64,000 nucleotides of DNA from positions 279,324 through 343,323 of the forward strand of contig FREY01000001.1 of NCBI GenBank assembly GCA_900143635.1. Reading direction: 5' to 3'. Both the position numbers and the translations under genes were made by a program. Origin of the DNA: Rhodobacteraceae bacterium Alg231-04. Lineage in GTDB: Bacteria; Pseudomonadota; Alphaproteobacteria; Rhodobacterales; Rhodobacteraceae. Shown here one piece after another: positions 29,917 through 34,013 of this stretch (position 1 is its first letter; each line of letters opens with the position of its first letter). Below the pieces are notes generated by a model. It had not been told where the DNA came from. It did not search any database and saw only the letters and a list, made by a program, of their open reading frames with translations.

Positions 29917-30011
29917 GGTGCATCAAATCCCTCACTCAAACCCAGCATCACGCTTGACCTGATCTCTGGCTTCCCGCACCGTTGCGGCATCATTTCCAAA
30001 AGGCGGACCCC

Positions 30012-31691
30012 GTGGCGCAGGCAATTTGGCAGGGAAGTCTGGCTCAGCGCAGCCGGACAGCAAGCGGGTTAATCCTCTTCGCCTTTGCGTTCTTCCACTT
30101 TCTGAACGTGGCGGCCGGTCTGGTGTCGCCAGAGATGATGCGACAGGTCCAAAACGCCCGCCTGCTGATAACCGGGCACAATGCGGGAAAGGCCATACTG
30201 TATTCTGCGCTGCTGCTGCATATGGCGCTGGCAATCTGGCAGGTAGCAAGCCGCCGAACGTTGCGGATGACGGCATCGCAGGCGCTGCAGCTGGCTCTTG
30301 GGCTGCTCATCCCACTTCAGCTTATCCAGCATGTGGTTTTTGTCCGCTATGCGGGCCTTCAATACGGGTTTGATGACGGCGTTTCCTCGGTCATACTTTC
30401 CCTTTGGTTCGAGAAGGAGGCTTTGCCGCAATTTCTGTTACTGCTGGCGGTCTGGGCGCATGGGTGCATTGGCCTGCATATGTGGTTGCGGATTACCAGC
30501 TGGTGGACACCGGTTTTGCCATTCCTGACGGCCATTGCGACCCTGGTTCCCGCTTTGGCGCTGGCCGGGCTGATAACCGAAGGCCGCCGCATGTGGAACC
30601 TATACAGCGTGCCAGGCAACGCCGACCCGCTGATCCAAAAATACAATTGGCCCGGCCCCACCGCAAAAGCCGCACTCACAGATCTCTATCACACGTCCCT
30701 TTATGCCTTTGTCACGCTCGTGCTGGTATCGGTCAGCGTCTACTATGTCCGCCGCCTGATCCGCAGCCGCAATTCGCTTCAGATTGCCTATGCCGACGGG
30801 CCGAAGGTCTCTGTGGAACACGGGCCTACGCTGCTAGAAATCTCGCAGATCAATGGCATCAGCCACCCATCTTTATGTGGCGGAAAGGGGCGCTGCACCA
30901 CCTGCCGCGTTGCCATCACCAAAGGACTTGGCGGCCTCCCTGCCCCCTCAGCCGCCGAGGCACGAAGCCTGCAGGCGATCAACGCCCCGGCCAACGTCCG
31001 GCTGGCCTGCCAGATCAACCCGACGACCTCCATGACGGTAAAGCGCGTGGTACAGCCGCAGGGCCGCCGCCGTGTCCACGATGCGCAGGGAGAAGAGAAG
31101 ACAATTGCCATTCTTTTCCTTGATATCCGCGGCTTCACTGCAAGGTCGGCGGGTTTGCCCCCCTATGATGTGGTTTTCCTTCTGAACCTGTTCTTTGACG
31201 CAATTGTCCCCGAAATCACCCGATCTGGCGGCGTGGTGGACAAGTTCATAGGCGACGGGCTTTTGGCCATGTTTGAAAGTGACAACCCCGCGGATTCCGC
31301 CATTGCCGGGCTGTTGGCCGCCAGCCGGATCGGCGTTGCCCTTGCTCGTTTCAACCGCGTCTTGGCATCAGAAGGCAAACCGCCCGTATTTATCGGCATG
31401 GGATTGCACATGGGGCCTGTGGTCCTGGGCGAAATCGGCGCGGCAGGCCACGCGCCGCGCACCCTCATCGGCGCAACCGTCAATGCCACCGCCCGGCTCG
31501 AATCCAAAACCAAGGAACTCGGCGTCGAATTGCTGGTTTCGGAGGTGGTATTTACAACCGCGGACATCTCAAGCGGCCCGCAAGAATTGCAGCCCTTCGA
31601 CCTGCGCGGTGTTGACCGCCCGATCCGGGCCCTGCCGATCCAACGGGCCTCGGCACTGGCCGCATTGCTGGATGCATCACCGCCGGACTGA
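30012..31691 (+). CDS. Membrane adenylate/guanylate cyclase with [2Fe-2S] ferredoxin domain
   Basis: About 559 residues from the GTG at 30012 (AAGG upstream); a TTG at 29982 is a less likely start. Three parts are seen. Residues about 15-250 hold several membrane helices resembling a succinate dehydrogenase/fumarate reductase anchor. A plant-type [2Fe-2S] domain follows with C289-x5-C295-x2-C298 and C333 ('SLCGGKGRCTTCRV'). The C-terminal part is a class III nucleotidyl cyclase with metal residues D371 in 'FLDIRGFT' and D415 in 'FIGDGLLAMF', and 'ATVNATARLES'. The product is probably cAMP, made in response to redox state. No coupled operon partner is seen. Confidence 0.85.
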   Translation: MAQAIWQGSLAQRSRTASGLILFAFAFFHFLNVAAGLVSPEMMRQVQNARLLITGHNAGKAILYSALLLHMALAIWQVASRRTLRMTASQALQLALGLLIPLQLIQHVVFVRYAGLQYGFDDGVSSVILSLWFEKEALPQFLLLLAVWAHGCIGLHMWLRITSWWTPVLPFLTAIATLVPALALAGLITEGRRMWNLYSVPGNADPLIQKYNWPGPTAKAALTDLYHTSLYAFVTLVLVSVSVYYVRRLIRSRNSLQIAYADGPKVSVEHGPTLLEISQINGISHPSLCGGKGRCTTCRVAITKGLGGLPAPSAAEARSLQAINAPANVRLACQINPTTSMTVKRVVQPQGRRRVHDAQGEEKTIAILFLDIRGFTARSAGLPPYDVVFLLNLFFDAIVPEITRSGGVVDKFIGDGLLAMFESDNPADSAIAGLLAASRIGVALARFNRVLASEGKPPVFIGMGLHMGPVVLGEIGAAGHAPRTLIGATVNATARLESKTKELGVELLVSEVVFTTADISSGPQELQPFDLRGVDRPIRALPIQRASALAALLDASPPD

Positions 31692-31900
31692 CCCCGGCAG
31701 CACGGCCTTCGGTCTGATCTGCAAAAAGGGAAAACGATCCCCCTGCCCCGGCTGATGGGGAACAGTTTCCCCCGCAGCCATCAACACTGCGAAAAGAGGC
31801 GCGGAACGCCGAACTGGACGCACCGTTGCATTCCTGGCACGGCGGCAATCTGCCTCAACACAGGGCGAATTCCCCCTTTGCAGACCAAACAAACCATGCG

Positions 31901-31922
31901 ATGCGTTCACCCGTGAACACAT
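31901..31922. promoter_or_regulatory. 22-bp near-perfect palindrome before the HTH-sat-cysC frame
   Basis: ATGCGTTCAC, a CC centre and GTGAACACAT form arms that match at 9 of 10 positions (core GTTCAC-CC-GTGAAC is perfect). It lies 15 bp before the ATG at 31938. Such a site just ahead of a MarR-like domain suggests an autoregulatory operator. Confidence 0.5.
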
Positions 31923-31937
31923 ATTGAGTCGCCTGAA

Positions 31938-32303
31938 ATGTCCGCGTTGCCCACCAAACCCAGCCTAGAGGAGGAAGACCTTCTCTTTTGCCTTCTGCGC
32001 CAGCTTGATCTGGCGCCGGACGCTTCGCAGCGGGCCACGGCAGCAGCACTTGGCATTTCGCTGGGACGGCTCAATGCACAGCTGAGAGCAGCGTCTGACG
32101 CGGGCCTCATCAAGATCAGTGACCGCGCAGGCCCGGACAAACGCCAGCGCTTTGCCTATGGGATCACCTCCCGCGGTGCCGCCGAAAAGAACCGGCTAAC
32201 CGATCAATTTCTCACCCGCAAACTTGCCGAGTACGACGCATTGCACGCCGAACTCACCGGAACCACAAGCGGCCTTGCGCCCCTGAAATACAGGAACAAG
32301 ATC
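31938..32303 (+). other. MarR-like HTH module at the 5' end of the sat-cysC frame
   Basis: The 122 residues before Met123 form an intact winged helix (recognition helix around 37-50, wing 'KISDRAGPDKRQRFAYGI') plus an amphipathic dimerisation helix. No stop codon separates it from the enzyme, and the linker 'TGTTSGLAPLKYRNKI' is short. The ribosome-binding site of its ATG is weak (GAGTC). It may be a separate ancestral gene whose stop was lost, or part of a real fusion. Confidence 0.6.
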
Positions 32304-34013
32304 ATGCAGAACAATCTCGCCCCCATCCCTGAGCTCTATGTCTCCTATGACAGCGCCCAGAAACTGAAAGCCGAAGCTGCCGATCTGGTCAGCTGGGACC
32401 TGACGCCGCGCCAGATCTGCGATCTGGAACTGCTGATGAACGGTGGCTTCAACCCGCTGAAAGGCTTTCTGACCGAAGAAGACTACAACGGTGTTGTTGA
32501 AAACATGCGCCTGGCCGACGGCCAGCTGTGGCCGATGCCGATCAACCTGGATGTGTCCGAAGATTTCGCAGGCAAGCTGGAAATCGGTCAGGACATCGCG
32601 CTGCGCGATCAGGAAGGCGTGATCCTCGCCACCATCACCGTGACCGACCGCTGGACACCGAATAAAGCGCGCGAAGCCGAAAAAGTCTTTGGTGCGGACG
32701 ACGACGCGCACCCGGCCGTCAACTACCTGCACAACCAGGCAGGCCCAGTCTATCTTGGCGGCCCCGTGACCGGCATCCAGCAGCCCGTGCACTACGACTT
32801 CAAAGCCCGTCGTGACACGCCGAACGAATTGCGCGCCTATTTCCGCAAAGTCGGCTGGCGCAAAGTTGTTGCTTTCCAGACCCGCAACCCGCTGCACCGC
32901 GCCCACCAGGAGCTGACCTTCCGCGCCGCGCGCGAAGCCGAAGCCAACCTGCTGATCCACCCCGTCGTCGGCCTGACCAAACCGGGCGACGTCGACCACT
33001 TCACCCGCGTGCGCTGCTACGAGGCGGTTCTGGACCAGTATCCCGCGGCCACCACATCCATGTCGCTCCTGAACCTGGCCATGCGCATGGCTGGCCCGCG
33101 CGAGGCCGTCTGGCACGGCCTGATCCGTAAAAACCACGGCTGCACCCACTTCATCGTTGGCCGCGACCACGCAGGCCCCGGCAAGAACTCTGCCGGTGAA
33201 GACTTCTATGGCCCCTATGATGCGCAGGAACTGTTCCGCGAGAACCAGAAAGAAATGGGCATCGAAATGGTCGACTTCAAGCACATGGTCTATGTGCAGG
33301 AGCGCGCCCAGTACGAACCTGCGGACGAGATCGCCGACAAAGATGACGTGACCATCCTGAATATCTCAGGCACCGAACTGCGCCGCCGCCTGTCGGAAGG
33401 GTTGGAAATTCCCGAATGGTTCTCCTTCCCACAGGTGGTTGAAGAGCTGCGCAAGACCAAGCCGCCGCGCGCCAAACAGGGCTTCACCGTCTTCTTCACC
33501 GGCTTCTCTGGGTCCGGCAAATCCACCATCGCCAACGCGCTGATGGTCAAGCTGATGGAAATGGGCGGCCGCCCGGTGACCCTGCTGGACGGTGACATCG
33601 TTCGTAAAAACCTGTCCTCCGAACTGGGTTTCTCGAAAGAGCACCGTGATCTCAACATCCGCCGTATCGGCTATGTCGCCTCCGAGATCACCAAAAACGC
33701 CGGAATCGCCATCTGCGCCCCGATTGCGCCTTATGCGACCACGCGGCGCGCGGTGCGCGAAGACATCGAGGCCTTTGGTGCCTTCATCGAGGTCCACGTT
33801 GCCACCTCGATTGAAGAATGCGAGCGCCGCGACCGCAAAGGTCTCTACAAGCTGGCCCGTGAAGGCAAAATCAAAGAGTTCACCGGCATCTCTGACCCCT
33901 ACGATGTGCCGGTGAACCCTGAGCTGCGGGTCGAAACCGAGGGCACAGATGTTGACCACTGCGCCCACCAGGTTCTGCTGAAGCTGGAGAGCATGGGACT
34001 GGTCAAAGCCTGA
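31938..34013 (+). CDS. MarR-like winged-helix domain in frame with bifunctional ATP sulfurylase/APS kinase
   Basis: The frame is open for 691 residues. Residues 1-108 match a MarR-type EPS-associated regulator: 'QRATAAALGISLGRLNAQLR' recognition region, then 'LIKISDRAG' and a helical tail 'AEKNRLTDQFLTRKLAEY'. Residues 123-691 form a complete 569-residue sulfate adenylyltransferase/adenylylsulfate kinase: 'RNPLHRAHQ' and 'GRDHAGPGKN' of ATP sulfurylase, then 'GFSGSGKST' of APS kinase near 523. The enzyme converts sulfate to APS then PAPS. ATG 32304 has its own AGGAA site, so the enzyme alone may also be made. A strong terminator follows the stop. Confidence 0.85.
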   Translation: MSALPTKPSLEEEDLLFCLLRQLDLAPDASQRATAAALGISLGRLNAQLRAASDAGLIKISDRAGPDKRQRFAYGITSRGAAEKNRLTDQFLTRKLAEYDALHAELTGTTSGLAPLKYRNKIMQNNLAPIPELYVSYDSAQKLKAEAADLVSWDLTPRQICDLELLMNGGFNPLKGFLTEEDYNGVVENMRLADGQLWPMPINLDVSEDFAGKLEIGQDIALRDQEGVILATITVTDRWTPNKAREAEKVFGADDDAHPAVNYLHNQAGPVYLGGPVTGIQQPVHYDFKARRDTPNELRAYFRKVGWRKVVAFQTRNPLHRAHQELTFRAAREAEANLLIHPVVGLTKPGDVDHFTRVRCYEAVLDQYPAATTSMSLLNLAMRMAGPREAVWHGLIRKNHGCTHFIVGRDHAGPGKNSAGEDFYGPYDAQELFRENQKEMGIEMVDFKHMVYVQERAQYEPADEIADKDDVTILNISGTELRRRLSEGLEIPEWFSFPQVVEELRKTKPPRAKQGFTVFFTGFSGSGKSTIANALMVKLMEMGGRPVTLLDGDIVRKNLSSELGFSKEHRDLNIRRIGYVASEITKNAGIAICAPIAPYATTRRAVREDIEAFGAFIEVHVATSIEECERRDRKGLYKLAREGKIKEFTGISDPYDVPVNPELRVETEGTDVDHCAHQVLLKLESMGLVKA
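32291..32306 (+). promoter_or_regulatory. Internal Shine-Dalgarno and ATG for sat-cysC alone
   Basis: AGGAACAAG (32291-32299) stands 5-10 bases before ATG 32304. Starting there gives exactly the 569-residue length usual for this bifunctional enzyme in the Roseobacter group, so internal initiation is plausible. Confidence 0.55.

Follow-up and report, generated by a model that had tools for sequence, protein, structure and literature searches.

A probable dual-start, self-regulating sulfate-activation gene in roseobacters, with a MarR_EPS-like domain fused in frame to Sat-CysC

Within a 64,000-nucleotide stretch of DNA from Rhodobacteraceae bacterium Alg231-04 (contig FREY01000001.1; hereafter the window), the reading frame of the sulfate-activating enzyme Sat-CysC is extended upstream by a MarR-type DNA-binding domain, and we consider it likely that this is a dual-start, self-regulating enzyme gene, giving both a complete Sat-CysC and a longer form that is predicted to bind a palindrome and to repress the gene. 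In the mechanism proposed here from sequence comparison, one frame would encode plain Sat-CysC from an internal start and the long MarR-type form from an upstream start. The long start would be weak and yield few regulator-enzyme chains, and the internal start would be strong and yield many enzyme chains, an imbalance of few long and many short subunits that is expected because the long start is almost devoid of a Shine-Dalgarno sequence. The long form would bind the palindrome next to a likely promoter, and this binding would repress both forms; activation may take the place of repression. Sat-CysC enzymes are oligomers, so that long and short chains may mix. As the least certain step, the oligomeric state, or ATP, APS or PAPS bound in the enzyme part, could tune DNA binding, and the amount or activity of the enzyme would thereby feed back on its own transcription. 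A bolder version, in which the active sites sense APS or PAPS, a few long subunits in a mostly short oligomer set their own transcription, and regulator, operator and logic were borrowed from exopolysaccharide control, is possible rather than probable.

The coding features of the gene are as follows.

31938..34013, + strand: long reading frame of 691 aa, MarR_EPS-like helix-turn-helix (HTH) part and Sat-CysC (stop-free open reading frame and profile matches)
31971..32258, + strand: winged-helix domain, residues 12-107 (TIGR04176 match, AlphaFold2 model, PDB matches)
32292..32296, + strand: internal Shine-Dalgarno sequence AGGAA, its AGG being the codon of R119 (codon conservation)
32304..34013, + strand: short reading frame of 569 aa, beginning at the internal start and holding the complete Sat-CysC (NF004040, 1038.5 bits)
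32328..33455, + strand: ATP sulfurylase part, PUA_2 at residues 131-281 and ATP-sulfurylase at residues 292-506
33477..33932, + strand: APS kinase domain, residues 514-665

The earlier note on this DNA had described a MarR-like domain continuing into the enzyme, and the frame indeed runs through all 691 residues without a stop; the enzyme is, as that note had it, a normal Sat-CysC of 569 residues by its score from the internal start, and the AGGAA site and the ATG at 32304 lie where they had been placed. Its assignment of the domain to the exopolysaccharide-associated MarR type stands in part. The winged helix is present, with a recognition helix at residues 42-54 and a long C-terminal helix at 78-107, and TIGR04176 (MarR_EPS) is the nearest family, but it matches residues 12-107 at 84.5 bits, slightly below the curated cut-off of 88. 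All 39 members of set A2 match the same profile at E <= 1e-3 (best 2e-28). The name MarR_EPS implies a location in an exopolysaccharide locus, and the window domain lies outside such a setting, being fused to sat-cysC; it is MarR_EPS-like and is not classed as a MarR_EPS member. HTH_24 matches residues 19-59 at 25.4 bits (cut-off 21.9), and the bifunctional Sat-CysC model NF004040 matches residues 120-690 at 1039.6 bits, above its curated cut-off of 669. As an encoded frame, an enzyme and a DNA-binding domain are thus joined in one polypeptide, as is asked of a trigger enzyme.

The AlphaFold2 model of the HTH part (mean pLDDT 85.3) shows a winged-helix fold whose C-terminal helix is long, and a Foldseek search of the PDB with it returned winged-helix matches with MarR proteins on top, the nearest solved structures including MarR-family repressors with and without DNA; the full-length fusion was modelled poorly (pLDDT 64.8). 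Among 45 aligned proteins, QTRNPLHRAH (residues 314-323) is invariant and the P-loop (522-530) is invariant or nearly so, F523 excepted, both of which we presume from sequence to be catalytic, and S41, L42, G43 and N46 of the recognition helix show no variation.

Upstream of the long start, three further features can be recognized.

31876..31879, + strand: CTTT block, a conserved upstream element (footprint over 105 loci)
31902..31921, no strand: predicted operator TGCGTTCACCCGTGAACACA, with the core GTTCA-N4-TGAAC at 31905-31918, linked to the fusion
31924..31931, + strand: conserved TTGAGTCG block between the palindrome and the long start (about 0.4-1.35 bits per position at palindrome loci)

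The palindrome was surveyed at 201 loci with an enzyme match, comprising 133 fused loci (with duplicates), 108 of which have distinct 300 nt upstream, and 68 unfused loci, part of the 125 genomes (160 minus 35) that carry the enzyme without the fusion. Of the 108 distinct fused loci, 105 have the exact core 5' of the long start, some 400 nt upstream of the enzyme start; the others are one-mismatch versions (L121 and L040) and a locus cut by a contig end (L055). Within 700 nt before unfused sat-cysC it was found in none of the 68 loci. Because palindrome and HTH are physically linked, part of their co-occurrence reflects common descent. Around the palindrome, the footprint consists of CTTT at -29, a further block spanning -10 to -1 and, on the downstream side, TTTGAGTCG, with the other DNA mostly unconserved; 61 of the 105 loci have CTTT[TGC] at position -29 relative to the palindrome (1.0-1.65 bits at -29 to -27), and the CTTT block is possibly part of the promoter. 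The GAG within TTGAGTCG may be a weak ribosome-binding site. A consensus sigma-70 scan of 31690-32330 yielded no promoter, and Rfam gave no match at the gathering threshold in 31600-32400. In three loci (L197, L140 and L042) the fused gene is preceded by a pair of exact palindromes spaced 26-49 nt apart, and four others (L120, L128, L129 and L132) appear by eye to have an imperfect second copy.

Genome-wide searches point to a narrow use of this site. The core occurs once in the window and at six exact sites in the window's genome (reversed control 2), the five others all lying inside long coding frames. Allowing up to three mismatches, the 20-mer was found at 12 places (control 2), namely the fused gene at one mismatch and 11 places at three; nine of these 11 were viewed, and eight lie in long frames, with no sulfate gene recognized by eye at any of the nine. 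The ninth (L232, G000 C16:7798) is a loose palindrome 5' of a LysR-type regulator gene. Since loose copies exist, one of them before this LysR-type gene, there may be a small regulon beyond the fused gene. Across 197 family genomes, the strict 20-mer was present in 19, with a reversed control of 0 in every row: 17 copies are at the fused gene by coordinates, and the one in G190 is at a contig end that matches the cut end of its fused gene, hence probably also at the fusion. The last (L262, G162 C69:8736) is a 20-bp palindrome of this type before an unrelated regulator-like gene in a genome without the fusion, which we ascribe to chance or to another system. In about half of the fused genomes the site departs from the strict 20-mer and takes a looser form. 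So far as tested, the palindrome would mark essentially one target.

This single exact, promoter-proximal palindrome of the window's genome would suit a plain dosage autoregulator, in which the long form occupies its own promoter according to its abundance, irrespective of metabolites, and the dual start would then couple the dose of the regulator to that of the enzyme. Such a scheme deserves real, though less than even, weight. It is compatible with the self-regulating dual-start gene proposed above in everything except the last and least certain step, but it gives no reason for a fused rather than a neighbouring domain.

Free-standing relatives of the domain bear on what the fused domain could recognize. 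We collected 32 free-standing MarR_EPS-like genes, 20 from other genomes of the family (37-51% identical to the fused domain) and 12 from plasmids of the same order (12 of 20 plasmid matches). Within 140 nt upstream, 18 of the 32 have the exact core, five a one-mismatch core, five a GCTC-type variant and four none, counts that are not fully independent because several of the genes are close relatives; by a rough composition estimate, the core is expected by chance at about 8e-5 per 160 bp. The fusion has Asn at residue 46 of the recognition helix and a GTTCA core, and the GCTC variant was scored only with His46 (five of 11 His genes vs. none of 20 Asn genes), a pattern that is blurred by L237, an Asn46 gene with a mixed GCTCA/TGAAC site. 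Since these unlinked relatives have the same palindrome, the fused domain likely reads its own upstream copy. Alternatively, a separate regulator could bind the palindrome, and the HTH part could work elsewhere or merely hold the enzyme together. Binding of the palindrome by the domain is a prediction, and the domain scores slightly under its family cut-off, both of which leave room for such a regulator; nevertheless, a separate regulator would account neither for the absence of the palindrome from all 68 unfused sat-cysC genes nor for its presence upstream of unlinked relatives of the domain, and we regard it as improbable.

On plasmids, 11 of the 12 loci with a free-standing gene also hold, next to it, genes for polysaccharides or nucleotide sugars or a gene resembling rfaH. 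RfaH- or NusG-like genes adjoin three of the 12. By eye, a conserved GCGG(T/C)AGC element lies shortly before the starts of 18 of the 20 family genes (L207-L226) and 11 of the 12 plasmid genes (L237-L248), and we take it to resemble the ops/JUMPstart element of RfaH-controlled operons.

The evidence for an internal start comes from codon choice. At codon 119, 12 bases before the enzyme start, AGG is used in all 81 genes examined (the window's and 80 named relatives), vs. 27 of 4117 at the other Arg codons of the same genes, and codon 123 is ATG in 67, GTG in 12 and TTG in two, with no other codon. For codon bias, codon 119 ranks first of 577 scored sites (KL 5.28 vs. 1.68 for the next). Over the 108 distinct fused loci, AGG is present in 106 and also in L024 after a one-codon register shift, with CGG in L013, and the start is ATG in 92, GTG in 13 and TTG in two, with ATG again in L024 after the shift. 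Where position 123 is Val it is GTG in 13 of 13 cases (1888 of 4605 Val codons overall), and where it is Leu both are TTG (586 of 6916 Leu codons overall); these AGG and start counts are not independent events because the genes are related. Shine-Dalgarno cores were counted at the 105 loci with the palindrome only, with the first in-frame start codon 3' of the palindrome serving as the long start: 103 loci have a 4-nt core before the internal start and three have one before the long start, where GAG is present in 73. Both the internal Shine-Dalgarno sequence and the start codon are thus conserved beyond the protein sequence.

Whether the long fusion alone is made, with the AGG before M123 serving ribosome pausing or RNA structure and no initiation, has to be weighed here. 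The source names, where given, do treat the whole frame as one protein, yet pausing requires no start codon at a fixed distance, and position 123, be it M, V or L, is always encoded by ATG, GTG or TTG, which makes this reading very improbable. The earlier note had posed a true fusion and two starts as two possible readings, and the data favour the two together, the HTH part being selected as a protein and the internal Shine-Dalgarno sequence and start being conserved in the DNA. With the internal signals conserved and the long start almost without a Shine-Dalgarno sequence, both readings are probably true at once. An HTH part that codes for protein and meets no stop before the enzyme would give a fusion product if the long start is used, and from a strong internal start, marked by a fixed rare codon, one would expect the enzyme by itself; production of both forms would be the simplest reading.

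The fusion is not an accident of one genome. When the HTH part was searched in relatives, where the earlier note had left it to be seen whether it is fused, adjacent or absent, strong matches (E <= 4.6e-34) were found in 36 of 198 sampled family genomes, 35 of them in frames of 690-797 aa and the other (G032) cut by a contig end, and the next weaker matches (E >= 2.4e-24) lie in frames of 120-309 aa. Sat-CysC is present in 160 of the 198 genomes, so that about one fifth of the sampled enzyme-bearing genomes have the enzyme fused. Among the best 80 of 194 named relatives, a set biased towards close relatives and rich in Shimia, all 80 loci have HTH and enzyme in a single frame (L065 is cut by a contig end), and a stop between the parts, which had been set beforehand as the finding that would count against a fusion, occurs in none of them. 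Genera in this set include Shimia, Roseovarius, Leisingera, Phaeobacter, Pelagimonas, Aliiroseovarius and Sulfitobacter, among others. The HTH region of the long protein is matched by 733 proteins; among the 120 matches listed, 114 are of 687-703 aa and six are shorter pieces, and source names, where given, call the whole frame the enzyme, some shorter pieces carrying the name of a regulator. Two fusion genes of the typical roseobacter kind stand under other titles, L114 (JAHVJD010000004.1, titled Nocardioides marinus) and L095 (NZ_JAHVKE010000001.1, titled Maritalea mobilis), and these titles may be wrong or the assemblies mixed. A scan of 289 genomes of the class, with at least four genomes of the window's family among the matches listed, gave 57 genomes with an HTH match at E <= 1e-5; no HTH frame of about 690 aa was found outside the family in these 289 genomes, only those of the window's genome (G000) and of G219, both of the same family, and the remaining matches are in frames of 117-343 aa.

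Median dN/dS was 0.096 for the HTH part (39 pairs) and 0.078 for the enzyme (40 pairs), calculated on 40 random pairs of 473 with one value undefined for the HTH part, which indicates that the HTH part is under purifying selection as a protein. That the short enzyme is the only product, the HTH part being a relic or leader that stays untranslated and is open by chance, is the least credible of the readings and hardly tenable: it would suit the strong Shine-Dalgarno sequence at the internal start and the near absence of one at the long start, as well as locus L181 (G157), where the HTH part has decayed while AGGACA and ATG persist, but not the one open frame in all 80 loci, an HTH dN/dS near that of the enzyme, or the invariant S41, L42, G43 and N46 in the 45 aligned proteins.

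The history of the fusion is recorded differently by its two parts. Fused HTH domains form one clade apart from the free-standing ones (SH-aLRT 100, 124 columns). On the enzyme tree, from which L025 and L030 were left out, the fused state is patchy, with 18 label changes, at least four of them forced; this tree is poorly resolved (53 of 99 inner branches open) and leaves gain vs. loss undecided. Because the fused HTH domains are one clade, the best fit is a fusion that arose once, taking its operator over from a MarR_EPS gene, and was later lost or transferred. The patchiness on the enzyme tree suggests that control by the fusion is dispensable in most relatives. The decayed HTH of L181, in a further genome (G157 C81) that is fragmented and 80% complete, is a remnant without the palindrome; this locus could represent a late stage at which the long form is being lost naturally, unless the assembly is at fault.

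Enzymes with a DNA-binding function, and genes with two starts, are both known. The E. coli trigger enzymes BirA, NadR, PepA, PutA and PyrH (PMC8249747) are enzymes with a DNA-binding function, as is predicted from sequence for the fusion, and in the available part of that source none is sulfate-activating and a dual start does not come up. PutA represses at the putA-putP spacer, the one place to which it binds, and a single target is likewise proposed for the fusion (PMC8249747). In the portions of the sources at hand, infB, cheA and clpB (PMC11005335) and HrcQ (PMC8553256) have two in-frame starts with long and short products from one frame, as we propose here, and no transcription-factor domain is mentioned for the extension, unlike that of the fusion. 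The free-standing MarR_EPS regulators share with the fusion a similar recognition helix and, in most, the same upstream palindrome, but are about 110-160 aa long and unjoined to sulfate genes. Sat-CysC without an HTH part (NF004040; solved relatives 2gks and 3cr8) is the same enzyme as that of the fusion, listed family members being 79-92% identical to the window's enzyme among the matches listed, but 67 of the 68 unfused loci have no HTH part, the other being the remnant in L181, and none has the palindrome. Our literature search, which covered few subscription papers, returned no sulfate-activating enzyme with a DNA-binding domain, and for MarR_EPS nothing under the accession TIGR04176 and two papers with a single mention each under the name.

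If the proposed mechanism is true, many roseobacters have a first step of sulfate assimilation that senses and adjusts itself, and this self-control runs through a domain that the source names of the matching proteins do not mention. The gene would also be a natural case of a rare codon, AGG, fixed inside a gene by apparent translation initiation, so that the long and short forms should be separable by simple experiments. Furthermore, the palindrome provides a testable candidate operator for MarR_EPS regulators.

Regarding the sulfate metabolism of the host, no CysD was found in the window's genome (the control was positive in 10 of 14 genomes), which suggests that Sat-CysC serves as its ATP sulfurylase. 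The genome yielded one PAPS/APS-family reductase (L276, G000 C14), with CC and CxxC motifs that we take to mark the iron-sulfur type able to use APS. With a reductase of an APS-using type, the pathway would divide at the kinase domain, and it would make sense for PAPS or APS to act as the signal. The same iron-sulfur motifs raise the question of what uses the PAPS from the kinase domain. Two genes precede the fused gene, one of the Fer2-cyclase type and one of the Pyr_redox_2 (thioredoxin-reductase-like) type, the former lying directly upstream at 29982-31691 and encoding a 2Fe-2S ferredoxin domain (residues 276-348) together with an adenylate/guanylate cyclase catalytic domain (residues 372-517).
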